IMG/VR virus record: IMGVR_UViG_3300047392_000043
Coordinates: 1 to 61,804 of that record
Length of the DNA: 61,804 nt
Source of the DNA: a virus
Strand: one strand, 5' to 3'
A program made the translations under genes and the position numbers. The notes under the pieces are model-generated. The model searched no databases and was not told where the DNA came from. It saw nothing but the letters and a program-made list of their open reading frames with translations. Positions 10,761-58,645 of the stretch are shown here, one piece after another (the stretch's first letter is position 1; the number at the start of each line of letters is the position of its first letter).

Positions 10761-10789
10761 ATTGTAGCATCTATTTAGGAATAAAGCAA
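10761..10789 (-). promoter_or_regulatory. Possible sigma70-type promoter before folE
   Basis: On the minus strand TTGCTT (10789-10784) and TACAAT (10766-10761) are separated by exactly 17 bases. The -35 box is weak (three of six) and the -10 is good. It is about 45 bases upstream of folE in a real intergenic gap (10719-10774), partly overlapping the end of the upstream gene. Confidence 0.45.
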
Positions 10790-11056
10790 TACTTCACTTG
10801 GCCAAGTTAGCAAATAAAGCATTAAATCTTCTGGCTTTTTAAAGTGGACCATAATGGTAATATCAAACATCTCATGTGAGTGTTTAGCTGATTCTACCTT
10901 TGACAATTTGCGCCAGTTAAATGGATCACCCTTATAGTCGGTTGCTGTCCAACGATTCTTGCAGTTATCAATCAACCACCGCCTTATGTCCTTTAGTGTG
11001 TACAATGTGGCGGCAGTCTTTGCTGAATAGAACTTATCCTTTGTTAGCGTTAGCAT
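10775..11056 (-). CDS. Outlying member of the W-x-x-[ED]-N / DAxxF-x-L-x-W small-protein family
   Basis: 93 residues if started at the ATG at 11056 (MLTLTKDKFYS), which overlaps the glutaredoxin end; longer starts would run through glutaredoxin. It has RRWLIDNCKNRW and, near the C-terminus, VHFKKPEDLMLYLLTW. These are the same two motifs as the 13-member array at 21.7-26.1 kb, so this appears to be a dispersed copy. Function unknown. Confidence 0.6.
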   Translation of the reverse strand: MLTLTKDKFYSAKTAATLYTLKDIRRWLIDNCKNRWTATDYKGDPFNWRKLSKVESAKHSHEMFDITIMVHFKKPEDLMLYLLTWPSEVLLYS

Positions 11057-18402: not shown

Positions 18403-21051
18403 TTAGGAAAACAAGTCATCCAAAAATCCTCTATCCTTACTTAGATTTAGGTCCCAGTTAAGTACACCCAAAAGGTTATCAATCTTGGAGTCGATGATCT
18501 TTTCTTCCATCGCACCATGATCAAATGGTAGCTCCTTGAACCAGTCTGGCAGGTTCATCTCATCAATTGGATAAGCAATTGAATTGATTTGAAGCGGATT
18601 GTTCTTTAGCTTACACACAATAGCTTTCTGGCCATCAGTGATGTCCATACTACGTCTATCGCCATAGGCTTCTTTAATACGATTCCAGTTAATAGCCGCC
18701 ATAGCATGTCCTACACCACACTTGCCTGTTTTCTTGTATGTGTCTGTATGCTTAGTTAGATTGTTAACACGCTTAGGTGTGCCCTTTTCCCAGCCTGGAC
18801 GACTCTTAAACTCCTCACGGAACTGTTTGACACGAGCCATGACTGTTTCCATGCTTGCACCTTCTAGTGTCATAGTAAGTGCTTCTTCTAAGAAACGTTG
18901 CATAAACTCTGGAGTATCGGCTCGCTTCATATCAAGACCCATGGCTTTAAGTTCGCCCTTAGATCCGTCCTTATCTTTGCGCTTGCCTTCCTTATCTGTA
19001 ATAAGAACAGCATAACGCTTTTTGGTCATATAAATGCCTTTGGATGCAACTACTTCTCGACCTGCTTTGATAATCTCGCCTTGACTTGCTGGAGCATTAA
19101 AAGCACGATTCATAAAGGCCGGGAACGTGCCGTTTACTTGATCAGAGATAGCATCATACAATTCAATAATCTTATCCACTGTCCAATCAATCTCACCACG
19201 TTCAATTTGTTCTTTGAACACTGGTACAGCCGAGAAGTAAACAGAGTCAGTGTCGCCATAGATAATAGCTTTACCCATATGATCGTATTCACCAGTTAAG
19301 CAATCATTTACTTGACTTGCCATGTGGCGTGCAACAAGACGTCCGCATAGTGTGGTACTCTGTCCAAGTCGTTGATCAAAGAATCGACTGCCTGCGTTCA
19401 ACAACGCACCATAAGCAGAGTTCAAGTTAATCTTCTTAACCAGCTGGCGCTTGTCCCAGAAGTCGTACATGTCTGTACCATATGCTTCTTTGGCCTTTGC
19501 TTGCAATTCCTTACGTTCAGCATACCAACGTTCCAGCAAGCCTGGAATAACACCTTTGGTGTCATACTTGAAGATGGTACCATTGCCACTAATCATAAGT
19601 GGTTGGCCACCGTGGAACACATAGTCATACACTTGTGCCGAACTCATTTGTGTACTTGTACCATCTGTCCAGTCAATGATCTCAGTTTGACCAATGTCGC
19701 GGTTCATTACAGATTCGTATTCAAAGCAAGCAAACTTACCTTCCCAGAATTCTGCAATGCCCTTACCTTCTGCAATAAACTCGTCAATACCAGCTAGTGT
19801 GCGAGTCTGGCGTACTTGTCCAATAATAGTCTCGGGACTCATATTCAACGCACGGATCAGCGATGGATACAGTGAGTTAATGTCCATGGAGCCAATCCAG
19901 TCATGCATACCTGCTTTAGGTACTGCAACATACGCACCAGCAGCCGCATTGTCTTTTGAATCTTCACTACGACGAGGACGGTCTGGTACCACCATGTTAA
20001 GGCGGTGAGCTTCATTGATAACAGCTTGGTCAGTCACAGCAACTGCACCTAACGTGCCACGAAGCGTGACAGTGTTTGCATGGCTAATCAGATTAGTAAG
20101 TTCAATAAACTTTAACTTGTCGTCTAGTTTCTTAAGCAATACAACGTCTTGTCTGTTATAAGCAACAAACTTTTCAAAGTCGTTGTTGTATAGTTGATCC
20201 AACGTGCCTTCATAGTGGATCTTGTTTTCACCTAGTTCAATTTCACCAACATAGTCCAGTCGATAGCTTGGAAGTTCGTGATAGTTATACTTGCGATACA
20301 GTTCAAGATAGTCAAGGTGGACACGACCAATAGGATCAAATGTTTCTAGAGTTTTGCCGTACTTTTCATACTCACGCTTCTTGGGATACTGATCCCACAA
20401 ACAAATGCGACGAGTTTGGTCTTTGCCCAACACACGAGTAATGCGGTTAGTGGTGTACGGAATATCAAAGCCTTCTGAGTTCCAACCACTTAGTATGTCA
20501 GCGTCTTCGATCAGCTCGAGCCACATGTCGAGCATTTCCTTTTCGCTGTTGCATAAGATAGTGTTGTCAAACTTGGCACAAATTTCTTTGGCAACTTCAA
20601 CACTCATGCCATCGGGCTTTAGGCAAAGAGTAATGTTGACATCCATCCATGTCAAGTATGTGGTAATGGCTGTGATATAGTTGAATGGATCCTCAGGTGG
20701 AGCAAAGCCCTTTACCTTGTCGTAAGATACCTCAATGTCGAAAAAGGCAACGTGAAGGTTAGGCGCATCTTGGCCTCCATACACTTCTTCCAAGCAACGG
20801 TTAAGCGGCTTGTAATCGCTTTCGCATAGTTTTCTGTTGCTGTAGATTCTACGCTCTTTGTCAAATGCCGCGGCATTGCCAAGGATGACTCTGCTAACTC
20901 GGTCGCCAGCAATGTTAGTAAACTTACCTTTAGAGTCAGGATAGTAAAATACGTACTTGGCAGGATACTGTTTGAGTACCCTCTTACCATCAACACGTTC
21001 TACAACGTGGATGATCTCTTTCTTTTTATCGTGATATGCGTCAATGAACAT
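18403..21051 (-). CDS. 43: Family B DNA polymerase (gp43-like)
   Basis: 882 residues, the length of T4 gp43 (898). Exonuclease motifs: FDIEVSY (105-107 DIE), SGWNSEGFDIPY (about 189-199) and YNRQDVVLL (298-306). Polymerase motifs: DINSLYPSLIRALN (390-403), KKINLNSAYG (539-548) and YGDTDSVYF (598-606). All catalytic acids are present, so replication and proofreading should both work. It is intact, in one piece, without intein or split. Confidence 0.97.
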   Translation of the reverse strand: MFIDAYHDKKKEIIHVVERVDGKRVLKQYPAKYVFYYPDSKGKFTNIAGDRVSRVILGNAAAFDKERRIYSNRKLCESDYKPLNRCLEEVYGGQDAPNLHVAFFDIEVSYDKVKGFAPPEDPFNYITAITTYLTWMDVNITLCLKPDGMSVEVAKEICAKFDNTILCNSEKEMLDMWLELIEDADILSGWNSEGFDIPYTTNRITRVLGKDQTRRICLWDQYPKKREYEKYGKTLETFDPIGRVHLDYLELYRKYNYHELPSYRLDYVGEIELGENKIHYEGTLDQLYNNDFEKFVAYNRQDVVLLKKLDDKLKFIELTNLISHANTVTLRGTLGAVAVTDQAVINEAHRLNMVVPDRPRRSEDSKDNAAAGAYVAVPKAGMHDWIGSMDINSLYPSLIRALNMSPETIIGQVRQTRTLAGIDEFIAEGKGIAEFWEGKFACFEYESVMNRDIGQTEIIDWTDGTSTQMSSAQVYDYVFHGGQPLMISGNGTIFKYDTKGVIPGLLERWYAERKELQAKAKEAYGTDMYDFWDKRQLVKKINLNSAYGALLNAGSRFFDQRLGQSTTLCGRLVARHMASQVNDCLTGEYDHMGKAIIYGDTDSVYFSAVPVFKEQIERGEIDWTVDKIIELYDAISDQVNGTFPAFMNRAFNAPASQGEIIKAGREVVASKGIYMTKKRYAVLITDKEGKRKDKDGSKGELKAMGLDMKRADTPEFMQRFLEEALTMTLEGASMETVMARVKQFREEFKSRPGWEKGTPKRVNNLTKHTDTYKKTGKCGVGHAMAAINWNRIKEAYGDRRSMDITDGQKAIVCKLKNNPLQINSIAYPIDEMNLPDWFKELPFDHGAMEEKIIDSKIDNLLGVLNWDLNLSKDRGFLDDLFS

Positions 21052-21461: not shown

Positions 21462-21475
21462 ATGTTAGTATAGCA

Positions 21476-21697
21476 TTATTGTTTAAGATTGTCAAGCATC
21501 TCGTCCTGTGCTTGTTGGTGCCATTCCTTCATCCAAGGACTATGATCACATTCGCGCACATGAGCCATTATACGTTTGCGACCTGCGCCTTCGACTGCCT
21601 CACCAAGAAAGAAGTGCAGTATCACACGACCATGATGTTTAATTTCAATAATCATAGGATCATGCTTTGCGTTATCCCATGTAAATTCTTCGTACAT
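21476..21697 (-). CDS. Unrecognised small protein at the 3' end of the array
   Basis: 73 residues, MYEEFTWDNAKHDPMIIEIKH, ending EWHQQAQDEMLDNLKQ. Strand-rich first half, helical second half. It lacks both array motifs, so it is a neighbour rather than a member. Confidence 0.55.
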   Translation of the reverse strand: MYEEFTWDNAKHDPMIIEIKHHGRVILHFFLGEAVEGAGRKRIMAHVRECDHSPWMKEWHQQAQDEMLDNLKQ

Positions 21698-21698
21698 A

Positions 21699-21974
21699 TT
21701 AACTCCAAGTTAGTTTAAAAAGCGCCGCCTCGTTTTTGTTTTCGAAGACCCATGTGTTAGCACGATGCTTCCAATGATGCTTGCATTCATTGTGTAGCCA
21801 ATTGTTCATATCAAGTGTAATGCCAGAAGCAAAGAACTTTGGAAGTTCAACCTTTGTCCAACCAACTGCAACCATCATATCTGTCAACAGTTCCCAATTG
21901 ATTTCCTCTGCTAGGATCTTTGCCATTTGATCAGCATACTGCTCTTCCATGACCTGTGTTGCAGTTTTGTTCAT
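21699..21974 (-). CDS. Array paralogue 1 (W-x-x-[ED]-N / EAALFKLTW)
   Basis: 91 residues. NNWLHNECKHHW (57-68) and WVFENKNEAALFKLTW (75-90). It has an extra N-terminal helical part (EEQYADQMAKILAEE) not seen in most members. The NECKHH segment is nearly shared with the paralogue at 23780-24034, suggesting a recent duplication of that part. Confidence 0.7.
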   Translation of the reverse strand: MNKTATQVMEEQYADQMAKILAEEINWELLTDMMVAVGWTKVELPKFFASGITLDMNNWLHNECKHHWKHRANTWVFENKNEAALFKLTWS

Positions 21975-21975
21975 A

Positions 21976-22206
21976 TTATTGTCCGATTACATCAAACATA
22001 TCAGCATACTCGCTTTTGGCCCATTGCCCATTGTCCCCGCCGTAGTGCCAAATACAACGTCGATAGATAGTTCTAAGCCATACACGCTCACCTGATTTGG
22101 TCTTAACAGGTCGCCAAGCAAACCAAAGCCGCCATGGTTCAATTTCAACCTTACGCCAGATGTTGCCATCTGTTGTAACAGAATCTGGTGCTGTATTGTA
22201 GTTCAT
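21976..22206 (-). CDS. Second small paralogue family, copy A
   Basis: 76 residues from the ATG at 22206, which overlaps the upstream stop (ATGA). RLWFAWRPVKTKSGERVW, RRCIWHYG and EYADMFDVI recur in the gene at 24691-24966 (VYAWWPVKTIYGEYVW, KRKVWVSWG, QYATAFDLI). The pair forms a second, smaller family interleaved with the main array. No function recognised. Confidence 0.65.
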   Translation of the reverse strand: MNYNTAPDSVTTDGNIWRKVEIEPWRLWFAWRPVKTKSGERVWLRTIYRRCIWHYGGDNGQWAKSEYADMFDVIGQ

Positions 22207-22445
22207 GCGCCCCACCTCAACATAAAAAATGCACGATCATTGGTGTCCTTGATGCGCCAAATGTTGACGCCCCAGATAGAAGCCGCCCAAGTTGATCCTT
22301 CAATATTCGATGCCAATGCGGCTTCAATACCATTTTCATTGCACCATTCTTTAACTTTTATACGATACTTTGCAGGCACTTCAACATCACGCTCGTCGCT
22401 TATGAGTTTCATCCCGTTGCGTTCTCTAAAGACTTTCATTCCCAT
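22203..22445 (-). CDS. Array paralogue 2
   Basis: 80 residues from the ATG at 22445 (MGMKVFRERNGMK). VKEWCNENGIEAAL is the first motif and IWRIKDTNDRAFFMLRWGA the second, with Asp-Arg replacing the usual acidic-Ala. Its ATG touches the upstream stop. Confidence 0.65.
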   Translation of the reverse strand: MGMKVFRERNGMKLISDERDVEVPAKYRIKVKEWCNENGIEAALASNIEGSTWAASIWGVNIWRIKDTNDRAFFMLRWGA

Positions 22446-22654
22446 TATGACCACCTTAGTTTACACATTATAGCATGTTCAATTTCGTCAAACACAATAA
22501 TAGCACGAGTGCCTTGTGCATGAACTTTAAGTTCATATTTGCTTCGATCCCATTCAACAAGTTCATCAAGCCAGTCTCGCAGTTCTATAACTTCTGCTGT
22601 ACGTGCATCAATATCAAACAGGGTATGTTCTTTTAGTTTAATGCGAACTATCAT
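22445..22654 (-). CDS. Array paralogue 3
   Basis: 69 residues. First motif weak (LRDWLDELVEWDR); second motif IIVFDEIEHAIMCKLRWS. The N-terminus is a short beta-hairpin (MIVRIKLKEHTLFDID). One of the smallest members. Confidence 0.65.
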   Translation of the reverse strand: MIVRIKLKEHTLFDIDARTAEVIELRDWLDELVEWDRSKYELKVHAQGTRAIIVFDEIEHAIMCKLRWS

Positions 22655-22796
22655 ATGGCGGGGCTATTGGTCGCTTCGTGCAATACTCGCAGTTGGCATC
22701 ATCACACTTATCTTCTAGCCACTTGTTGCATGTTTCGCAATAGTACGAATCGTACTCTTCCGAATAGTTTTTCTTGCAGTCTTCTTTACAATCCAT
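22638..22796 (-). CDS. 52-residue cysteine-rich zinc-ribbon-like protein
   Basis: Direct translation from the ATG at 22796 to the stop at 22638. MDCKEDCKKNYSEEYDSYYC, then ETCNKW, DKCDDANCEYCTKR: seven Cys arranged as C-x3-C, C-x2-C and C-x4-C-x2-C, likely binding one or two zinc ions. Its start touches the upstream stop (TAATG) and its end overlaps paralogue 3 by 17 bases. It is not a member of the array family. Confidence 0.6.
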   Translation of the reverse strand: MDCKEDCKKNYSEEYDSYYCETCNKWLEDKCDDANCEYCTKRPIAPPYDSSH

Positions 22797-23062
22797 TATT
22801 CACCCCATGACAATTTAAGGTACGTGTATAGTTCTTCGTGTATGTCAAACACGTTTCTGTGCAACATCCACTTACTGTCAATATGGTCAAACCACTCTTT
22901 GTTTTCAACCCCGTGTTCGCGTACCCATATAGATACATCCTTGCGGCAACTAACAGTGTACCATGTTGCTCCATCAACAGTTGCTTGATCTAAAACTTCA
23001 AAGTTCCCTTCACCCATATGGGAAATACTCCATTGCTGTTGGACGGCAGTTTTGACTATCAT
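22796..23062 (-). CDS. Array paralogue 4
   Basis: 88 residues from the ATG at 23062 (MIVKTAVQQQW), which overlaps the upstream stop; the longer reading frame runs into the membrane-protein gene. VSIWVREHGVENKEW is motif 1 and VFDIHEELYTYLKLSWGE is motif 2. Confidence 0.65.
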   Translation of the reverse strand: MIVKTAVQQQWSISHMGEGNFEVLDQATVDGATWYTVSCRKDVSIWVREHGVENKEWFDHIDSKWMLHRNVFDIHEELYTYLKLSWGE

Positions 23063-23424
23063 ACAGTCACTAGTGCAACAAGTCCAACATAAGTCAAGGC
23101 GTGCAGGAATTGATCCAAGCCCAACAGCCACCAAAATTGTTCGTGTGTGTTTGCACCCCAGCCGTACTTTTTGTTGATGTTCATCTTGGCCCAATCAATG
23201 TGGTAGTGAACCAGCATGTCAATTAGACCTAGGTAAATGGCTGCAACAGGAGCGTACCACATAAAACACAATGCTGTGAAAATGCCATGTAAGCCCGAGT
23301 GCAGTATGCCTCCAGGGTGTCCGTATGTACCTTTGTTCATCCACTGGTATGGTTTTTGTAGCGGAAAATCTACTACAAAATGTTTAGTAAAAAGAAATGC
23401 AATTAGGATCAATGTATCATTCAT
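23059..23424 (-). CDS. DUF3307-like integral membrane protein
   Basis: 121 residues from the ATG at 23424 (MNDTLILIAFLFTKHF), with GGAG upstream. KHFVVDFPLQKPYQWMNK and HSGLHGIFTALCF match the DUF3307 membrane family (HxxxDFxLQ...H). Three or four hydrophobic helices. An isolated membrane gene inside the array; role unknown. Confidence 0.7.
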   Translation of the reverse strand: MNDTLILIAFLFTKHFVVDFPLQKPYQWMNKGTYGHPGGILHSGLHGIFTALCFMWYAPVAAIYLGLIDMLVHYHIDWAKMNINKKYGWGANTHEQFWWLLGLDQFLHALTYVGLVALVTV

Positions 23425-23426
23425 GG

Positions 23427-23783
23427 TTAGCTCCACATTAGTTTTGCAATTATAGCACACTCTTGATGCTTTTGCCTAATCTTTATTGTAAGCCGGTTGT
23501 CCGTTGCGTCTCGGTCCGCCATACCCCAATCCCAATCCCATTTTTGTCGGCCCACATTGGCTTCCATCCAGGGCCTATAGTGATCGTTTGGATCAGTTGA
23601 TTCTGTTGACACTTTTGATCCATCTGGATCTTCGTATAGAGTTACCCAACCAACGGGCCACTTTACGTTGATAATAACACCTGGCATAAATCGCCACCAA
23701 AGTTTTTCACGCAGATTCATACCACATGGGAAATGCACACCGTTAGGTAGTGTAAACAGCTTTTTTATTTCTAATATACTCAT
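23427..23783 (-). CDS. Array paralogue 5
   Basis: 118 residues from the ATG at 23783 (ATGA overlap). Long version: a Trp-rich first half (LREKLWWRFMPGVIINVKW), motif 1 RPWMEANVGRQKW, and motif 2 IKIRQKHQECAIIAKLMWS, where Glu-Cys replaces acidic-Ala. Confidence 0.6.
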   Translation of the reverse strand: MSILEIKKLFTLPNGVHFPCGMNLREKLWWRFMPGVIINVKWPVGWVTLYEDPDGSKVSTESTDPNDHYRPWMEANVGRQKWDWDWGMADRDATDNRLTIKIRQKHQECAIIAKLMWS

Positions 23784-24034
23784 GCCCATGTCAGCGCAAA
23801 CAGCGCCGCCTCTTCGTCACATTCAAATTGAATAAACTTTTCTTCTAAGTAGCCGGGACTGTGATAGTAAGGGTGCTTGCAGTTTTCTTTGAGCCATTCG
23901 TTTACCTTATAGTCTTTATAACTTATTTGCCACTGTGCTTGTACACCATCTACTGTTTTAGCATACGTAACTTTGTGCAACACTGGAAACTGTACTCCCG
24001 GCCATGCATCGTTTGTTTTATAAGTTACTGTCAT
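23780..24034 (-). CDS. Array paralogue 6
   Basis: 84 residues from the ATG at 24034 (MTVTYKTNDAWPGVQF). Motif 1 VNEWLKENCKHPYY and motif 2 FIQFECDEEAALFALTWA, both near consensus. The start codon forms ATGA with the preceding stop. Confidence 0.7.
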   Translation of the reverse strand: MTVTYKTNDAWPGVQFPVLHKVTYAKTVDGVQAQWQISYKDYKVNEWLKENCKHPYYHSPGYLEEKFIQFECDEEAALFALTWA

Positions 24035-24288
24035 GACCATCTCAATATAAACATTGCGGCATCTTCTTGCTCGCGAAACCAAAACTTTGCGTTATTAACA
24101 TACCAACGATGGCAAACACCTTGTTCGCCCCACACATCACCAGCAACACCATACTGCTCCACACACCATTCTATCATTTCATGCCAAGTTTGATTCTCCC
24201 AGTTGGGAGTATACCCTTCTGGCTTTAGTGTGTAATAGCGAGCGCCATGATGTCGTCCTGGTTCTCGTATGATAACTCGTTGTGTCAT
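24031..24288 (-). CDS. Array paralogue 7
   Basis: 85 residues from the ATG at 24288 (MTQRVIIREPGRHHG). Motif 1 MIEWCVEQYGVAG, motif 2 FWFREQEDAAMFILRWS, the best match to the family consensus. Rich in Trp and His. Confidence 0.7.
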   Translation of the reverse strand: MTQRVIIREPGRHHGARYYTLKPEGYTPNWENQTWHEMIEWCVEQYGVAGDVWGEQGVCHRWYVNNAKFWFREQEDAAMFILRWS

Positions 24289-24719
24289 TGACCCCATTGC
24301 AGTTTAAAAATAAAATAGTCTTCGTCGTCTTGAAAAGCAAAGAACCAATGGTCTCCTCCGCCTAGTTCATTTACTTCCCATTGGTTGGCAGTACTTGGCG
24401 CTTTCATTACACGATGGCAATCATACCGCCACTTGCCTTGCAAGTGTTCCTCACACCATTCGCATATAACATGGAACCCATCGCGATAGCCACCGGGCCC
24501 ATAATCATATATTCTTTTATAAACAAAGTTTTCGTAGTTTTCAAAACAATGAATATGCTTGTAGCCTTGATAGTAGTTTCTTATTTGAGAGGCACGCGGC
24601 ACATGGTCTGGATCGTACTTGCGTTCGTACTCTTTGCGATTGCGGCAATGATGCTTTTTTAGAAAGCGGTCTTCTTTCCAAGCCGCGTACCTAGCTTTGA
24701 TATCGAGCATTAGGGTCAT
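24285..24719 (-). CDS. Array paralogue 8 (longest, with basic N-terminal extension)
   Basis: 144 residues; ATG 24719 or ATG 24710 are both possible. An N-terminal basic part (KEDRFLKKHHCRNRKEYERK) precedes the family region: ICEWCEEHLQGKWR and WFFAFQDDEDYFIFKLQWGQ. I recall this longer form from other T4-like phages as a hypothetical protein, so it may be the ancestral member. Confidence 0.7.
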   Translation of the reverse strand: MTLMLDIKARYAAWKEDRFLKKHHCRNRKEYERKYDPDHVPRASQIRNYYQGYKHIHCFENYENFVYKRIYDYGPGGYRDGFHVICEWCEEHLQGKWRYDCHRVMKAPSTANQWEVNELGGGDHWFFAFQDDEDYFIFKLQWGQ

Positions 24720-24966
24720 ATGTAATCAAATCAAAAGCAGTTGCATATTGTACATGCGGCTCCATGAGAAACCCTGCACCCCACGATACCCACACCTTGC
24801 GCTTAAAAAGTTTTTCGCGCCACACGTATTCTCCGTAGATGGTTTTGACTGGCCACCAGGCATACACTTCGCGCCATGGATAGCAATCGCAACCATCTGT
24901 AATAATAGTGTAATCCACAGGACTCCAATTATCAGGTAAAAACTTTGCGGCGCCGTTATAACTCAT
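24691..24966 (-). CDS. Second small paralogue family, copy B
   Basis: 91 residues from the ATG at 24966 (MSYNGAAKFLPDNW), forming ATGA with the preceding stop. Shares REVYAWWPVKTIYGEYVW, RKVWVSWG and QYATAFDLITY with the gene at 21976-22206. The pair flank seven array-type genes. Confidence 0.65.
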   Translation of the reverse strand: MSYNGAAKFLPDNWSPVDYTIITDGCDCYPWREVYAWWPVKTIYGEYVWREKLFKRKVWVSWGAGFLMEPHVQYATAFDLITYDPNARYQS

Positions 24967-25151
24967 AACCAAGCGAGCTTAAACAACATAGCATCTTCTT
25001 CGTTGCCAAAGAAGTAATCAATTTTAGTATTGTCGTAGCTGTTATACCCGTCCATGTGTACATCATTGCTGATATAACTAGGACAATTTTCTTTGGCCCA
25101 GTTAAGTGGTTCTCGATACGGCCTAAATGGCAGTGTCACATAAGTTGTCAT
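24963..25151 (-). CDS. Array paralogue 9
   Basis: 62 residues, the shortest member. Motif 1 PLNWAKENCPSY, motif 2 IDYFFGNEEDAMLFKLAWL. Little else is present, so the two motifs and the linker are probably the minimal fold. Confidence 0.7.
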   Translation of the reverse strand: MTTYVTLPFRPYREPLNWAKENCPSYISNDVHMDGYNSYDNTKIDYFFGNEEDAMLFKLAWL

Positions 25152-25342
25152 GAGCAGGCCAACTTGAACATTACAGCATCATCTTTGTTGGCAAAGCAAT
25201 ATACAGAATTGTTTTCGTTAAATCGCCACGCTTCCCTGGGCAAATTTTGCTTGAGCCAAATAATACGGTCATCAGTTGCATGCATATCCTTGATAGGCAA
25301 ATCAAACTGGTGGGGCCAAAGACGTTTGTTTAGAACTCTCAT
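25148..25342 (-). CDS. Array paralogue 10
   Basis: 64 residues. Motif 1 RIIWLKQNLPREAW, motif 2 VYCFANKDDAVMFKLACS, in which the terminal Trp is replaced by Cys. Overlaps paralogue 9 by four bases. Confidence 0.7.
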   Translation of the reverse strand: MRVLNKRLWPHQFDLPIKDMHATDDRIIWLKQNLPREAWRFNENNSVYCFANKDDAVMFKLACS

Positions 25343-25343
25343 A

Positions 25344-25589
25344 CTACTTTCCGTATCTTAACGTAAACACCATTATAAACTCTTCTGCTTCTTCTTGCGA
25401 CCTAAATTTCCACAAATCGTATCCGATTCGAGTGCCGCACGAGTTTTCAGTGGTCCATTCCAGGATTCGATCTACTGCTTCGTAATCTACGATACTGCCA
25501 AATTCGTTTGAGTCAGCATAAGGATCAACCAGGCGAACTGTGTGTCCCCATCCTTTTTTCAATGCGTACTTTGGTACTAGCCAACTCAA
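25344..25589 (-). CDS. Array paralogue 11
   Basis: 81 residues. Motif 1 ILEWTTENSCGTRIG, motif 2 LWKFRSQEEAEEFIMVFTLRYGK, with a three-residue insertion and Tyr in place of Trp. Confidence 0.65.
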   Translation of the reverse strand: MSWLVPKYALKKGWGHTVRLVDPYADSNEFGSIVDYEAVDRILEWTTENSCGTRIGYDLWKFRSQEEAEEFIMVFTLRYGK

Positions 25590-25864
25590 TTAATAGATCC
25601 TCCAAATCGTAGCTTGGCAAGAATGGCATCTTCTTTTTTCTTAAAGCTGATTTGCGTTACGGTGTCCCATTTGCTACTGCTTACATCACTTACATCTGCT
25701 GAATGCATGATCCATAAGTCGTGATCGCCGTGATACATTTTAAAGTAATCGTACTCGGCTTGTGTGGTCATTAGCACAGGTGCAATGTTTTCAGACAGCC
25801 ACTCATACAATTCTCGCTCGTCGGCATCCCCAACAAACAAATTGTACGTTAGCCACTTAGACAT
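25586..25864 (-). CDS. Array paralogue 12
   Basis: 92 residues from the ATG at 25864. Motif 1 ELYEWLSENIAPVL lies near the N-terminus; motif 2 ISFKKKEDAILAKLRFGG has Phe for Trp. A longer linker (YFKMYHGDHDLWIMHSADVS) separates them than in other members. Confidence 0.65.
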   Translation of the reverse strand: MSKWLTYNLFVGDADERELYEWLSENIAPVLMTTQAEYDYFKMYHGDHDLWIMHSADVSDVSSSKWDTVTQISFKKKEDAILAKLRFGGSIN

Positions 25865-26144
25865 CAAAGTTCAGCATAAAGTATGCCGCCTCGTCTTTGT
25901 CTTTAATATGTACAGTGACCATTGGATCACCAGAGTTGAATCTAGGAGTACAATCAGCTTTAGGACAATGTTCCATCATCCAATCTAAAAACTCATGATG
26001 GTCGTTGCAGTATACCCAGCAATGCCATCCTACAATTTCTTCTAGGAACTCACGGCCAACATCACCGTTCTTGCGTAAGATAGCAGGCACATTGTGCCAA
26101 CCATCCTCATGTCGCCAATGATGAATTGTAACGTGCTGTTCCAT
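25857..26144 (-). CDS. Array paralogue 13
   Basis: 95 residues. Motif 1 EFLDWMMEHCPKAD, motif 2 VHIKDKDEAAYFMLNFDV, with Phe for Trp. The first family member read from the upstream promoter. N-terminal half is His/Trp-rich (VTIHHWRHEDGWHN). Confidence 0.65.
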   Translation of the reverse strand: MEQHVTIHHWRHEDGWHNVPAILRKNGDVGREFLEEIVGWHCWVYCNDHHEFLDWMMEHCPKADCTPRFNSGDPMVTVHIKDKDEAAYFMLNFDV

Positions 26145-26435
26145 TTACTGCATCCACATTTTTACCAATGCGATAGAATCAATAGTGACCAGTAGTAGGT
26201 AGTTGGCAAGCATACCAACGCTACCGCGAGTACGTGCCGCCCAGGCAAAGATACCACACTGTAATATAAACAATGGGTATAGTATCAAGAACGGTGGGGT
26301 AGGAACAGTAAGCATCATAGTAACGCTACATCCGATGCTTAAGAACCAAGCAAGAATTTCCAGCACACAACGCACTGGATTTTCTTGCCAATCCTCGCGA
26401 ATGTAATTGCCTACACTAGCAAGCAGTTTTAGCAT
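26145..26435 (-). CDS. Small membrane protein
   Basis: 96 residues with two or three hydrophobic helices (CVLEILAWFLSIGCSVTMML, FLILYPLFILQCGIFAWAA, LANYLLLVTIDSIALV). No enzyme motif. Second gene of the unit starting with the DsbA-like gene; one base separates it from paralogue 13. Confidence 0.65.
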   Translation of the reverse strand: MLKLLASVGNYIREDWQENPVRCVLEILAWFLSIGCSVTMMLTVPTPPFLILYPLFILQCGIFAWAARTRGSVGMLANYLLLVTIDSIALVKMWMQ

Positions 26436-26686
26436 TACACTTTATTGCCAGTTACGTCAAGGATTTCCTCAACTGCTTCTAAGTCCGACTGGTCCTTATC
26501 AAAGTCACCCTTGAATGCTTTGGTAATGGCTTTGTTCAGTACTGCGGCTTTGATTTCCATTTCTTCGGCAATTGCCGCTACAGTTTCCTTAAGGCCCACA
26601 TTAAGGTCGTCAATCTCACGTTTGACTTGGACTCCCTCTTGGATCACTCGTTTCAGTTTTGCAATTTGTTCAGGTGAAAAGCTCAT
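26435..26686 (-). CDS. DsbA-like double-stranded DNA-binding protein
   Basis: 83 residues, all helical: SPEQIAKLKRVIQEGVQVKRE, KETVAAIAEEMEIKAAVLNKA, FKGDFDKDQSDLEAVEEIL. Length and helix pattern resemble the T4 DsbA transcription-associated DNA-binding protein. It is the first gene after a near-consensus promoter and heads the array operon. The call is by pattern only. Confidence 0.55.
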   Translation of the reverse strand: MSFSPEQIAKLKRVIQEGVQVKREIDDLNVGLKETVAAIAEEMEIKAAVLNKAITKAFKGDFDKDQSDLEAVEEILDVTGNKV

Positions 26687-26720: not shown

Positions 26721-26749
26721 AGTATACATGAACTGTAGCAGGAAGTCAA
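26721..26749 (-). promoter_or_regulatory. Near-consensus sigma70 promoter driving the small-protein array
   Basis: Minus strand TTGACT (26749-26744), 17-base spacer, TATACT (26726-26721), about 35 bases before the DsbA-like ATG. The -35 overlaps the end of the nucleotidyltransferase-cupin gene. No clear terminator is seen between here and 21.5 kb, so the array is probably one early transcript. Confidence 0.75.
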
Positions 26750-27504
26750 GTGTCTTTGCGTTCGATATCTTCTTCTACGCAACTTGATCCATACTGGACC
26801 TCAATGATTCTTACTGGCTCATCATGAGGATTTGTAAGTTGATGCCACTCCCCAACTGGAACCTTAAATTCCTCGTGGCGTGCTAATTCGCTACTTGGTA
26901 AAGCATAGCCGCTAGCCATCATACTATTGATATTAGCCCTGCCTTCACTAACAATCCAGTATTCGGAACGGTGTTGATGACGTTGCATGCTCAAACTCTT
27001 ACCAGGGTTGATTGTTAGTTCTTTTACTTTCATGCCGGGCACTTCATGCAACACACGATAGTAGCCCCATGGTCGCTCAGTCTTAGGTGCTTTCCATTCT
27101 TCTAGGATCCAAGAGCTAGAGTTGGCTTTGTTATCCCCGCCTACCCCAAACTTAAACAGTACGTTCTTAACAGCCATTTCTGGAATGTTTGCCGCAGTGC
27201 GATCTCCACCATTGACAAAGATGATTTCAGCGTAGGAGTAGCTTGATTGGAAACTTTCCAATAGCTTGACTGCACTACCATCGCTATCATCAAAAGCAAC
27301 AACTTCATCTACGCATCTCAATCCTTCTAGCACTGCTTGACGTTCAGCAAAGGGCATAAATGGACGTCCTTTTTTGCGTTCAAGCCAAGCATCAGAGTTT
27401 AGGCCAACGACTAACTTGTCGCCGAACTCACGAGCCTCTTGTAAGTATTTTATGTGCCCTGAATGAACAGGATCAAAGCCACCAGTTGCAATTACTATTT
27501 TCAT
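26746..27504 (-). CDS. Nucleotidyltransferase-cupin fusion
   Basis: 252 residues from the ATG at 27504 (MKIVIATGGFDPVHSGHIKY). Residues 1-about 145 are an RfaE/HldE-type adenylyl- or cytidylyltransferase (H-x-G-H motif, FAERQAVLEGLRCVDEV, IFVNGGDRTAANIPE). Residues about 150-252 are a cupin (RPWGYYRVLHEVPGMKVKEL, SLSMQRHQHRSEYWIVSEG, GEWHQLTNP) like the C-terminal isomerase part of mannose-1-phosphate guanylyltransferase/isomerase. The fusion suggests isomerisation plus activation of a sugar phosphate for glycan synthesis. An AATAAATA box lies 5 bases before the ATG. Confidence 0.8.
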   Translation of the reverse strand: MKIVIATGGFDPVHSGHIKYLQEAREFGDKLVVGLNSDAWLERKKGRPFMPFAERQAVLEGLRCVDEVVAFDDSDGSAVKLLESFQSSYSYAEIIFVNGGDRTAANIPEMAVKNVLFKFGVGGDNKANSSSWILEEWKAPKTERPWGYYRVLHEVPGMKVKELTINPGKSLSMQRHQHRSEYWIVSEGRANINSMMASGYALPSSELARHEEFKVPVGEWHQLTNPHDEPVRIIEVQYGSSCVEEDIERKDT

Positions 27505-27554
27505 ATGAGTATTTATTGGCACATACTGTCCTGGTTTTTCAGAATAAGTATCGT
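27505..27554. promoter_or_regulatory. Divergent intergenic region
   Basis: Fifty bases separate two divergent ATGs. Minus-strand AATAAATA at 27510-27517 sits 5 bases before the ATG at 27504, matching the late-box arrangement seen before other genes. The plus-strand promoter for the monooxygenase-like gene is not obvious. Confidence 0.4.
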
Positions 27555-41560: not shown

Positions 41561-42220
41561 TTAAACTCCTAATAAATGAATATTGTTTTCGATGTGTTCC
41601 CACACACCTGTTGGGTTGCCGTCGGCAAACACTAACTGGCAACTGATGGTTATCCTAAAGCCGTGCCCTTGTACGACTGTATGAGGTTGATTTGTACGTA
41701 ATATAGCACTGGGTACATTGGACTGTGTTTCAAATACAGGTCCCGGCAGGTCGTGCCATTGAATACGACCTGCCGCTAAATCCTCTACGCAATCGGCCAT
41801 TACATTAACTCGTGCTTGCGAATATTCTGTAGCTGGGTATTCTTTTATGGTAATCGGTAAGTCTCGACTATCCCACCAGCATATTGTGCCTGGAGATTCT
41901 GCTAATTCATAGTAGCTTAAACGTGCTTCTAATAGCGTAGGTTGGCGATTGTAATACACACCGTCAGCATGTATAGCATAAGAAGTTGAATCAGCATCGC
42001 CAGCAAATAGCGTAACAGCTCTTGTCCGCAATCCTAACAACTCTATCAGCTGATTGGTTTGAGCAATAGTCTTTGGGAACAATTCAGTTACTGTACCTAC
42101 ATTAACAAGTCCGTGACCAGTGCCTGCATATTTGGTTTGTAAAGCAGGCAACTGGTTAGCAATAAAAGATTCCTTTTCCTCGGGATCAATCGCCAATGAC
42201 AACGGATAAAAGTATGTCAT
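41561..42220 (-). CDS. Putative 2OG/Fe(II) oxygenase-like protein
   Basis: 219 residues. YAIHADG (His84-x-Asp86), NQPHTVVQGHGFRITIS (His180, Arg189) and the predicted strands around them fit the double-stranded beta-helix metal triad with a 2OG-binding Arg. It is the second candidate of this type in the window (see 6905-7648), but the two are not clearly similar outside these residues. It overlaps the cyclase gene by four bases. Confidence 0.4.
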   Translation of the reverse strand: MTYFYPLSLAIDPEEKESFIANQLPALQTKYAGTGHGLVNVGTVTELFPKTIAQTNQLIELLGLRTRAVTLFAGDADSTSYAIHADGVYYNRQPTLLEARLSYYELAESPGTICWWDSRDLPITIKEYPATEYSQARVNVMADCVEDLAAGRIQWHDLPGPVFETQSNVPSAILRTNQPHTVVQGHGFRITISCQLVFADGNPTGVWEHIENNIHLLGV

Positions 42221-44253
42221 TTACTTGTGGCACGATATGTACCATCCCAATTAGCCGGCAAGCCTTCGTTCATGCGCTCTAGCATATTTTCATAGTACTG
42301 CTTTAGTTCGTTATCTAGCTTAATCAGCTTTTCGCACTGCTTGATAGCACGAGTCCAATCGCCGCGATAGTATGCAGTTAGATATGTGTCGTGTAGCGTT
42401 GTATTAGTAGTTCCTAACGTGTAGATCTTTACGCCTACATTCTTACCTTTAACTGCAATACAATCTAATTCAACTACCGGGTATTCGTTTTGAACAAGCT
42501 CAGCAGTTCGCTGTCCGAGTACAATTCGTACGCCATAAGGCTTACTTTGTCCCTCAAGTCGGCTCGCAAGATTGACGCCATCGCCCAAGCAAGTATAGTC
42601 AAAACGCTGATCAGATCCCATGTTACCGACCACAACAACTGCACTATTAATCCCAAGACCCATACCAAAAGGCGGGATACCTTCTGCCGTAACTTCTCGA
42701 TTAAACTCATCCAAACTCTCCATCATTTCTAATGCTGTCTTAACAGCCATATGTGCGTGACGTTCTTCGTCAACCGGAGCGTTCCAGAACGCCATTTGTG
42801 CATCGCCAATATACTTGTCTAATGTGCCGTTATTGTCAATGATCTTTTTAGTCATTGCAGTCATATAACGGTTCATAATTTTAGTAAGTCCTTGCACGTC
42901 CTTACCATAGTGTTCGGAAATAGTAGTAAAGCCACGAACGTCTGTAAACATAATTGATAGTTCGCGTTCATCGCCGCCTAGCTGTAGCATCTCCGGATTC
43001 TTTTGCAACTTAGCAACAAGTGCTGGACTTAGGTACGTGCCAAACTGCTTTTTAATTTGTTGCTTTTGCTTAAATTCAACTACAAAGCAAGCAAATAAAC
43101 CATGTCCATACAATACAGTAGCCGCAAAGGCCAAATAGTAAATGTCCCACAGCTGGCTATAAGTTTGCCATGCATAGAAGCTTCCGCCAACTACTGATCC
43201 TAGTGTAACAAATAGTGCCGCACCTACTGCCCAAAACGGCAATCGAGGCATAACGAAAATTAGTAGAAACGCTATCAGCACAATTGCTAATAGTTCAATG
43301 CTTCGTGCAAATGCAGGACGTACTGGACTGTCACCGTCAAGTAATGTTTGTACTGTTTGTGCTTGAATATCATGTGCCCACGCTTCGCCATTTGGGGTGG
43401 CAATAATACTGCCCAATCCTTCAACGCCTAAACCCAGCACAACAACTTTACCTCGAAGGTCTACTTTTTTCTTAGACAATTCAGATAGTTCATAACGTGT
43501 AAAGTTCTTGTTCCAACGTAGCCAAATACGGGCATGCTCGTCTGTGGTAATAACAGGTTGTCCAGCAATACGTACCTTTTCAATGCCAGCTGAACTCATT
43601 TTAACTTGATAGCTGGTTTGCCCTGTGGCAACACGAAGTGCTTCGATAGGCAAGCTGGGATAGATTTGATCGCCTACTGCCACTACCAATGGCATACGAC
43701 GAACAACACCGTCTACTTCAGGTGCAACAACACTAGTACCTACACCAGAAGCCGCGTCGGCTAACGGCTTGTAAGGACTTAACGCACCCGGCCAAGCAAA
43801 TGCCCAATCTAAAGTGTCACCGCCAATAACAGCAACACCACGACGAACAGCGTCAGGCTTTTTATTTTGTGTAGTAGGTGCTTGAGCAATAACACTGTTA
43901 GTGTGACTTAGTGTATTAACTAAATCTTTGTCTCCGCCTAGACGATCTGCTTCGCTCATAATAACAGGAACAACAATAGCTGATGCACCCATCTCTTGAA
44001 TACGATCAATGGCTCGTGCTAGATCTTTGCGTGGCCAAGGCCACTGGCCCAAGCGTTCTATAGAAGCTTCGCCAATGTCAATGATAACAACACGATCAGA
44101 ATCAACTGGCGTGTCTGTAGCAAGTAATGTGTCAAAGCCTTTGAGCTGTATGCTTTCAACAGGCTTGGGGTTGGAGATTTTTAATGCAACAAGTACAACT
44201 GCCGTAACAGCTACCCATGCAATACTCCATGGTCCAGGAATAAAGTTTTTCAT
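42217..44253 (-). CDS. CHASE2-domain class III adenylate cyclase
   Basis: About 678 residues from the ATG at 44253; ATG 44268 overlaps the predicted -10 box. A membrane helix, the extracytoplasmic CHASE2 domain (FDTLLATDTPVDSDRVVIID, GQWPWPRKDLARAIDRI, TPNGEAWAHDIQAQTVQTLL), three membrane helices (about 320-400, numbering from ATG 44268), then the cyclase: IMFTDVRGF (metal Asp443), DKYIGDAQMAFW (Lys485 and Asp489) and DYTCLGDGVNLASRLE. The Lys and Asp/Thr pattern favours ATP over GTP. A complete sensor cyclase on a phage genome suggests it changes host cAMP signalling. Confidence 0.88.
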   Translation of the reverse strand: MKNFIPGPWSIAWVAVTAVVLVALKISNPKPVESIQLKGFDTLLATDTPVDSDRVVIIDIGEASIERLGQWPWPRKDLARAIDRIQEMGASAIVVPVIMSEADRLGGDKDLVNTLSHTNSVIAQAPTTQNKKPDAVRRGVAVIGGDTLDWAFAWPGALSPYKPLADAASGVGTSVVAPEVDGVVRRMPLVVAVGDQIYPSLPIEALRVATGQTSYQVKMSSAGIEKVRIAGQPVITTDEHARIWLRWNKNFTRYELSELSKKKVDLRGKVVVLGLGVEGLGSIIATPNGEAWAHDIQAQTVQTLLDGDSPVRPAFARSIELLAIVLIAFLLIFVMPRLPFWAVGAALFVTLGSVVGGSFYAWQTYSQLWDIYYLAFAATVLYGHGLFACFVVEFKQKQQIKKQFGTYLSPALVAKLQKNPEMLQLGGDERELSIMFTDVRGFTTISEHYGKDVQGLTKIMNRYMTAMTKKIIDNNGTLDKYIGDAQMAFWNAPVDEERHAHMAVKTALEMMESLDEFNREVTAEGIPPFGMGLGINSAVVVVGNMGSDQRFDYTCLGDGVNLASRLEGQSKPYGVRIVLGQRTAELVQNEYPVVELDCIAVKGKNVGVKIYTLGTTNTTLHDTYLTAYYRGDWTRAIKQCEKLIKLDNELKQYYENMLERMNEGLPANWDGTYRATSK

Positions 44254-44263
44254 ACTATAATTT

Positions 44264-44292
44264 AGCATATTTTAATCTGAAAGTCAAGTCAA
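44264..44292 (-). promoter_or_regulatory. Candidate sigma70 promoter of the cyclase gene
   Basis: Minus strand TTGACT (44292-44287), 17 bases, TATGCT (44269-44264). A second overlapping TTGACT (44287-44282) pairs with TAAATT. The predicted start site leaves little or no leader before the ATG at 44253. Confidence 0.5.
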
Positions 44293-57175: not shown

Positions 57176-58645
57176 CTACTTGCCTTTGATCATTTTCCAG
57201 ACACTATATGCAACAACTGACCCCATCAAGCACAATATTGCTAGACTAATTGGCCGTGTAACAAACGGAGTAAAGTCTCCACTGGTAATTGCAAGCTGTC
57301 GCCTAAAGTATTCTTCGAACATTGGACCTAACACTAGTCCTAACATCAATGGAGCAGGCTCTAAGTCTAATACGTTAAACACATAGCCAAGAAATCCAAA
57401 CAGACCTATTAGCATTACTTCATTGGCATTGTTGTTTACGCTATACGCACCTATGCAACATATTGCAATGATAACAGGGTACAAGATGTGATACGGTATG
57501 CGAACAATTTGTACCCAAAGTCGAACCAGTGGTACATTTAAAATTAGCAACATGATATTGCCAATAAGCATACTAACAACCAGTCCCCAAAATAGCGCAG
57601 GCTGTTTGTCTAACATACCAGGTCCGGGCTGAACACCATTCATAACAAGTGCGCCTAGCATCAGTGCCATGACAGCGTTCTCAGGTAGGCCGAAACTTAA
57701 CAAGGGAATAAAGCCAGTTTGACTCGCGGCATTGTTAGCGGCTTCTGGAGCCGCAACACCTTCAATGGCACCTTTACCAAACTCGTCTTTATGCTTGCTT
57801 ACTTTTTTATCAAGTGCATAAGCGGCATATGAACTAATAGCCGCACTGCCTCCTGGTATCAGTCCAAAGAAACTGCCAACCATGCCACCCCTTATACTAG
57901 CAGGAATGATTCGCTTAAATTGTTCCCACGTTGGAAACAGAGCAATACTTCCCGAGTACGCTTTCATTTCTGTATTGGATGCAATGTTCTTTGCAATCTC
58001 GCCAATAGCAAAGATACCAATTGCAATAGTAACAAAGCCAATGCCATCTTCTAGATCAATAATGCCAAATGTATATCTGGATTGTCCTGTTGATAAGTCT
58101 GTTCCAACAAATCCAATTAAGATCCCTACCAGTGCCATTCCAATGCCACGAACTAAATCACCTGTAGTGAGAATACCTACGGTAACAAATCCAAATGCCA
58201 TCAGCATACAATACTCAGCTGGTCCAAATAAAAATGCTAGCTTACTTAATGGAGGACTAAACACGGCAATTAACATGGTAGCTAAACAACCAGCAATGAA
58301 GCTGGCAAAGCCTGCTGTAAAGATTGCAACACCAGCTTGCCCACGTTTGGTCATTTCGTGGCCATCAACGCAAGTCATGACACTAGATGCTTCTCCGGGA
58401 GTGTTAAGCAAAATGCTTGTGGTACTGCCGCCGTACTGACTACCATAGTAAATGCCTGCCAGCATGATAATGCTTGGGATAGGACCCAATGCATAGGTCA
58501 TTGGCAACAACATGCTAATAGTTGCAGTGGGCCCAAGGCCAGGCAGTACGCCGATTAGTGTTCCTATCAACGCACCCAACAAACAGTATGCTAGGTTAGT
58601 AAATGACCCAGCAACTGACAGGCCCAACAGTAGATTGTCTATAAT
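57176..58645 (-). CDS. tctA: TctA family large membrane subunit of a tripartite tricarboxylate transporter
   Basis: About 489 residues, roughly 12 helices. TLIGVLPGLGPTATISMLLP, YGSQYGGSTTSILLNTPGEA, GLIPGGSAAISSYAAYALDK and TGFIPLLSFGLPENAVMALM are family hallmarks, so it is complete. Start problem: no ATG. AAGGAG (58660-58655) precedes ATC-ATT-ATA-GAC-AAT-CTA in frame; ATT at 58645 (or ATC 58648, ATA 58642) best fits the spacing and the homologous N-terminus; TTG at 58627 lacks a ribosome site. The frame overlaps the tctB stop. Confidence 0.9.
   Translation of the reverse strand: MIDNLLLGLSVAGSFTNLAYCLLGALIGTLIGVLPGLGPTATISMLLPMTYALGPIPSIIMLAGIYYGSQYGGSTTSILLNTPGEASSVMTCVDGHEMTKRGQAGVAIFTAGFASFIAGCLATMLIAVFSPPLSKLAFLFGPAEYCMLMAFGFVTVGILTTGDLVRGIGMALVGILIGFVGTDLSTGQSRYTFGIIDLEDGIGFVTIAIGIFAIGEIAKNIASNTEMKAYSGSIALFPTWEQFKRIIPASIRGGMVGSFFGLIPGGSAAISSYAAYALDKKVSKHKDEFGKGAIEGVAAPEAANNAASQTGFIPLLSFGLPENAVMALMLGALVMNGVQPGPGMLDKQPALFWGLVVSMLIGNIMLLILNVPLVRLWVQIVRIPYHILYPVIIAICCIGAYSVNNNANEVMLIGLFGFLGYVFNVLDLEPAPLMLGLVLGPMFEEYFRRQLAITSGDFTPFVTRPISLAILCLMGSVVAYSVWKMIKGK

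Follow-up and report, generated by a model that had tools for sequence, protein, structure and literature searches.

Small non-essential early genes, transcribed from host sigma-70 promoters, serve phage T4 in the takeover of its host. In archaeal viruses, most small accessory genes that follow a conserved early promoter are believed to act in anti-defence (PMC11065993). Tandem gene arrays are known from the jumbo phages G and 121Q (PMC5646251), and a review of jumbo phages expects a hidden anti-defence arsenal among their small open reading frames (ORFs), of which only Tad1 has been named so far (PMC13282480). Here, we analysed the 61.8-kb IMG/VR virus record IMGVR_UViG_3300047392_000043 (the window, at its full length), which carries no tRNA genes, focusing on a run of thirteen small ORFs at 21699-26144 and on a further copy at 10.8 kb, which the original prediction, made from the sequence alone, had described as diverged paralogues with a two-motif signature.

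Unlike this family, the early genes of T4 are mostly not paralogues of one another, and T4 itself holds no family member. The early clusters of archaeal viruses (such as SIRV2, with AcrID1 homologues; PMC11065993) likewise gather small non-core genes, some of them multi-copy, behind early promoters and with varying content; however, they comprise mostly unrelated families with tested Acr members and an unrelated promoter type, whereas the locus described here holds one superfamily, known from sequence. The arrays of G and 121Q resemble it in tandem duplication within jumbo phages, although their copies are "very similar" (PMC5646251) and those of the present family are highly diverged. Our family profiles (model A6 for both, and A2 also for G) matched nothing in G or 121Q in searches that included positive controls.

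A new superfamily of small tryptophan-rich proteins

The window is a piece of a jumbo phage of the T4 superfamily. Its family-B DNA polymerase (18403-21051, minus strand) has Sinorhizobium phage Phosso as nearest named phage (48%), followed by the Rak2/GAP32/Atu_ph07-type jumbo phages (41-43%). The relatives considered below are 69 IMG/VR loci retrieved with related DNA polymerases.

All thirteen ORFs and the 10.8-kb copy (10775; genes are designated by their first coordinate) exist and carry both motifs. Their common domain spans ~43 residues, at or close to the C-terminus in almost all members, and its signature consists of a W-x-x-[ED]-[NH] helix followed by a C-terminal F-x(3)-[ED]-[DE]-A-x-x-F-x-L-x-W. 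A hidden Markov model (HMM), begun with four members and iterated over the ORFs of related loci, retrieved 12 of the 13 array members and 10775 at E-values of 1e-17 to 6e-4. As anticipated by the original prediction, members could be found from one another: in a leave-one-out procedure where all ORFs resembling the target in BLAST were removed and 1000 shuffles per target served as background, eleven of the thirteen (21699, 22203, 22445, 23427, 23780, 24031, 24285, 24963, 25148, 25586 and 25857) and 10775 were recovered at E 1.5e-9 to 3e-3, each above the best of its shuffles. The same procedure without orthologues fails for 25344 (E 4.2) and 22796 (E 130); 25344 joins the family through its orthologues only, and 22796 by profile-profile comparison only (HHalign probability 94%, pairwise P 1.6e-7). 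Once rebuilt with all sequences, the HMM matched 436 of 8854 ORFs at E<1e-3, the best shuffled ORF reaching E=0.43, and the members of the relatives sort into 29 orthogroups. An artefact or chance likeness is ruled out by the shuffles and these orthogroups; the members share one origin and form one superfamily.

This superfamily is new, being in none of the libraries or literature searched, which agrees with the earlier statement that no function was known for it. Searches of Pfam, PHROGs, NCBIfam, PADLOC and PDB sequences with the members and the family alignment returned chance-level matches only (e.g. TumE, 0.0015, in one of 37 members), and neither the family nor Phosso turned up in the literature searched. 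A collection-wide scan relied on a DNA pattern for the peptide DAMLFKLRW. Its single bacterial match (Alkaliphilus) was rejected, as it is the C-terminus of a PucR-like regulator in a genome without HMM match. These shallow searches (one peptide pattern, one consensus) yielded no convincing bacterial copy and none in plasmids.

Predicted fold and conserved positions

AlphaFold2 models were produced for 23780 (pLDDT 90), from a 72-sequence family alignment, and for 25857 (pLDDT 93), from an alignment restricted to its 24 orthologues. The end of the former is predicted as beta(20-26)-alpha(39-51)-beta(56-58)-beta(65-70)-alpha(73-83) and the latter as beta(39-46)-alpha(49-59)-beta(64-70)-beta(73-80)-alpha(83-93). 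The two members modelled, from different alignments, therefore display one beta-alpha-beta-beta-alpha topology, giving the common fold that the original prediction had put forward for checking. One designed protein (2n2t, residues 1-62) aligns with the core of either model, and the models have in common the BFVD matches A0A6J5L7H3 and A0A6J5L808, unnamed "uncultured Caudovirales phage" proteins that probably belong to the same family.

The small RRM, ferredoxin-like and KH domains have the same arrangement and size, and KH and LAGLIDADG domains were among the weak matches given by Foldseek and VIA, raising the idea of regulators that would bind different RNAs or single-stranded DNAs through a reduced RRM- or KH-like fold. 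We hold this to be quite unlikely. None of these structural matches reaches significance (E>0.5; Z no higher than 6), searching PDB structures with the models found nothing significant (VIA Z 5.3 and 6.0 at best; no Foldseek E-value below 0.58), no significant sequence match to these domains was found, and the alignments show no RNP or GxxG motif. Moreover, the family is slightly acidic on average.

Across 408 members, the conserved positions are all hydrophobic (W of helix 1, F of strand 3 and A/F/L/W of helix 2), and no polar residue is invariant, the best polar column reaching 59%. This makes an enzyme unlikely and favours a structural scaffold; an enzyme family was rejected on the absence of invariant polar (catalytic) residues. 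Tryptophan accounts for 4.6% of residues in members versus 1.6% in background ORFs. The median charge of the members is -2.3 per 100 aa and their isoelectric points range widely (4.4-9.6, 5-95%), as would be expected if their partners differ.

Copy number in relatives and in giant phages

Members occur at two places in the relatives, namely the array, between a dsbA-like gene and the DNA polymerase, and the 10775 site. Copy number, whose comparison between related phages had been suggested, varies from 3 to 17. In most relatives, the array begins with 25857, 25586 and 25344, and the other members come, go and change order.

The proposed repeated duplication is supported by other giant phages, where up to about 59 copies were counted. 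Uncultured contigs of 436, 465 and 462 kb carry 59, 53 and 56 copies, respectively, a 608-kb contig 32, and a 154-kb contig 28 (31 in 13 kb by ORF scan). Phosso (469 kb) holds about 50 (51 at E<=0.1; 48 at E<=0.01 with HMM A6), spread over about 20 clusters or singletons, including clusters at 5.7-14 kb, 95-100 kb and 348-349 kb of its genome. PA5oct has 3 copies, RIO-1 has 1 and Atu_ph07 has 3-5 weak ones. HMM A2 found none in T4, T7, phiKZ, RaK2, GAP32, CBB, Kaldavass, XbC2, XacN1, P-SSM2, CcrColossus, Vibrio 2.275.O, SCTP-2, HTVC019P or G; most of these phages were blank again with HMM A6, which also found none in 121Q and S-WAM2. Most giant-phage genes have no assigned role; in each of several genomes, 30-60 such genes belong to this one superfamily.

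Translational coupling of the genes and their common fold would be consistent with subunits of a single hetero-oligomeric assembly (ring, shell or filament) built from many paralogues. This is very unlikely, however, as the number of subunits would have to vary between 3 and 17 from one close relative to another and go up to about 59 in other phages, with neither stoichiometry nor order fixed, the core trio excepted.

Selection, turnover and recombination

Between the window and its closest relatives, the ratio of nonsynonymous to synonymous substitution rates (dN/dS) is mostly 0.04-0.25 for the members, with 22203 and 22445 near 0.4, versus 0.03-0.04 for the polymerase; these values were computed by NG86 on short genes, some with saturated dS. 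Most orthologues are thus under purifying selection, and the fast divergence initially proposed was not borne out: the paralogues are old, and they account for the variation together with recombination, changes of gene order and the gain and loss of genes. The selection data also bear on largely neutral or selfish cassettes, multiplied by tandem duplication under head-full packaging and having little function. Tandem duplication has indeed been proposed as a driver of jumbo-phage genome growth (PMC5646251). Nevertheless, purifying selection acts on nearly all orthologue pairs and the orthogroups are conserved over the long term, making this the least probable of the readings considered; pure neutral inflation was rejected on dN/dS.

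Array content differs even where polymerases are 98-99% identical. Furthermore, the DNA of genes 23780-24972 and 21476 matches loci L011/L012 (84-95%) better than L047/L003 (76-88%; 81-88% for segment 23780-24972 by itself), whereas the polymerase shows the reverse (82% versus 91-93%). The array is a mosaic whose segments recombine between phages. Together, purifying selection, mosaicism and content turnover indicate an old, functional repertoire that phages exchange through recombination.

Transcription and proposed role

The original prediction had assumed early-type promoter control; the promoter ahead of the operon (26721-26749) is of the host type, and nearly all relatives holding the site have similar boxes there, although within the window alone promoters are no more numerous than by chance (22 found versus 21 expected). 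The promoter after the array (21467-21495) is present at the same place in many, although not all, relatives. The only copy of the T4-type late element TATAAATA in the window lies far from the array, and none is found at the locus. A conserved sigma-70 promoter without late element at the locus makes transcription by the host polymerase likely, with early or constitutive expression.

Turnover, exchange and the host-type promoter lead us to infer host-facing roles (anti-defence or takeover), similar to those of the early accessory clusters in archaeal viruses (PMC11065993). The account that we tentatively prefer is a diversified scaffold of early-expressed binders directed against host or defence proteins. 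Small Trp-rich proteins of one superfamily, with a beta-alpha-beta-beta-alpha core and variable N-termini and loops, would provide the phage with a binding scaffold, duplicated and diversified over long times so that each orthogroup may bind its own partner. That partner would most likely be a host protein or a defence component, bound early in infection. Each lineage would retain a small constant set (25857, 25586, 25344) and exchange the rest by recombination to fit its hosts.

Several observations weigh against this account. PADLOC, whose library covers mainly defence systems, has no model matching any of the 37 members, and none of the members matches a solved structure in PDB sequence and structure searches. 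Core members such as 25857 are nearly constant in relatives, unlike typical arms-race genes. Finally, the arrays are embedded in replication gene clusters, with the DNA polymerase in the window and topoisomerase in giant phages, a location which fits a replication-related, phage-internal role equally well. Members would then be adaptors, each binding and tuning or localising an enzyme of replication, transcription or nucleotide metabolism (polymerase, topoisomerase, helicase), with copies tracking the enlarged enzyme set of giant phages. Accordingly placed are the copies beside the DNA polymerase in the clade of the window, the arrays abutting the topoisomerase large subunit in three giant-phage contigs, and the single copies or clusters that Phosso carries between its two topoisomerase genes and next to the genes for polynucleotide kinase and nucleotidyltransferase. 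In addition, the 22796 orthologues of about ten phages carry an N-terminal helicase-like P-loop segment that is truncated just after Walker A and matches PHROG 239 primase/helicase (E 1e-5 at best). Yet the differing content beside 98-99% identical polymerases is too fast for essential replication adaptors, and many other phages with similar enzymes have no copy, so that we regard adaptors as unlikely, though less so than the nucleic-acid-binding, assembly and neutral readings.

Pushed further, the host-directed binder account would make the domain a dedicated, evolvable binder scaffold of giant phages and perhaps their largest paralogous repertoire (30-60 members), in which every orthogroup would have a host protein of its own to neutralise or redirect and would be swapped between phages by recombination, like an effector repertoire; this bolder version is conceivable and on balance doubtful. 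If members are host-directed binders, they would amount to a natural collection of small protein inhibitors that is ready for use, and would account for some of the additional coding capacity that giant phages have. As Phosso is cultured (host Sinorhizobium meliloti NRRL L-50), their role is directly testable.

Organization of the locus

The proposed tandem array holds insofar as the thirteen related ORFs lie in one run, but four non-members lie among them (Table 1). The coupling of nearly all genes by ATGA overlaps was overstated: seven ATGA and one TTGA exact 4-nt overlaps account for about half of the junctions, the remaining ones being abutting, separated by 1-2 nt, or overlapping by 1 or about 14-23 nt. 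Two of the non-members (24691-24966 and 21976-22206, minus strand) share a W-PVKT-x-x-GE-x-VW motif and have weak matches to PHROG 14828/7749.

Table 1. Features of the array locus and of the additional copy in the window
Feature	Position	Strand	Evidence or remark
Promoter, sigma-70-type, TTGACT-17-TATACT	26721..26749	-	Ahead of dsbA-like gene and array operon
dsbA-like transcriptional regulator, first gene of run	26435..26686	-	PHROG 639 transcriptional regulator 1.4e-9; PHROG 12534 7.5e-21
Small membrane protein-like gene, fixed left neighbour of array	26145..26435	-	Kept in 35 loci including the window
Member 1, core, near-constant in relatives	25857..26144	-	HMM; AlphaFold pLDDT 93
Member 2, core	25586..25864	-	HMM, orthologues
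Member 3, core; weakest HMM link except 22796	25344..25589	-	HMM via orthologues
Member 4	25148..25342	-	HMM
Member 5	24963..25151	-	HMM
Non-member within array, paralogue of 21976-22206	24691..24966	-	Sequence comparison
Member 6	24285..24719	-	HMM; leave-one-out E 3e-3, modest
Member 7	24031..24288	-	HMM
Member 8	23780..24034	-	HMM; AlphaFold pLDDT 90
Member 9, divergent	23427..23783	-	Leave-one-out E 9e-4
Non-member, DUF3307 membrane protein	23059..23424	-	PHROG 2470 3.3e-19; Pfam DUF3307 1.9e-7
Member 10, remote	22796..23062	-	HHalign 94%; PHROG 239 matches of orthologues
Non-member, Cys-rich 52-aa protein	22638..22796	-	ORF list and library searches
Member 11	22445..22654	-	HMM
Member 12	22203..22445	-	HMM
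Non-member, paralogue of 24691-24966	21976..22206	-	Sequence comparison
Member 13	21699..21974	-	HMM
Second promoter, sigma-70-type, TTGACA-17-TATACT	21467..21495	-	After array, before gene preceding DNA polymerase
Family-B DNA polymerase, right anchor of locus	18403..21051	-	48% to Phosso
14th copy, adjoins glutaredoxin-like gene	10775..11056 (longest ORF to 11107)	-	HMM; orthologues in 21 other loci

Long forms and neighbouring genes

The segment fused to the 22796 orthologues (~60 aa; L007:1759-2175, L004:6751-7185, L018:5193-5588) resembles the start of a DnaB/T7-gp4-type helicase domain, and is shortened or lost in other phages, including the window (22796-23062). Giant phages also encode members of 211-230 aa (L138:1423-2076, L147:959-1594, L148:1018-1671, L100:1021-1713) with the domain near the C-terminus and a conserved C-terminal tail. 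These may hold two tandem domain copies, the first being degenerate, and no annotated relative of them was found. A small gene beside the array in relatives (L011:4224-4568 and orthologues), absent from the array of the window, ends in DEVALFKLSTGL and displays WCWxTWG and WCWIDD motifs; it is perhaps a further remote family member.

Elsewhere in the window, a full-length TctA tricarboxylate transporter (57176-58627, minus strand; Pfam 1e-150) has no match in five related contigs and is either a recent acquisition or an assembly join; no step in GC content was seen in its regard. A 683-aa protein combining CHASE2 and class III adenylate/guanylate cyclase domains (42217-44268, minus strand; Pfam 3.6e-42 and 4.7e-20) is kept at 73-92% in four of five related phage contigs, and is a nucleotide cyclase encoded by the phage, apparently bound to the membrane. 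Lastly, a cytidylyltransferase-like domain is fused to a mannose-6-phosphate isomerase-type cupin (26746-27522, minus strand) in a gene that adjoins other sugar-nucleotide genes.

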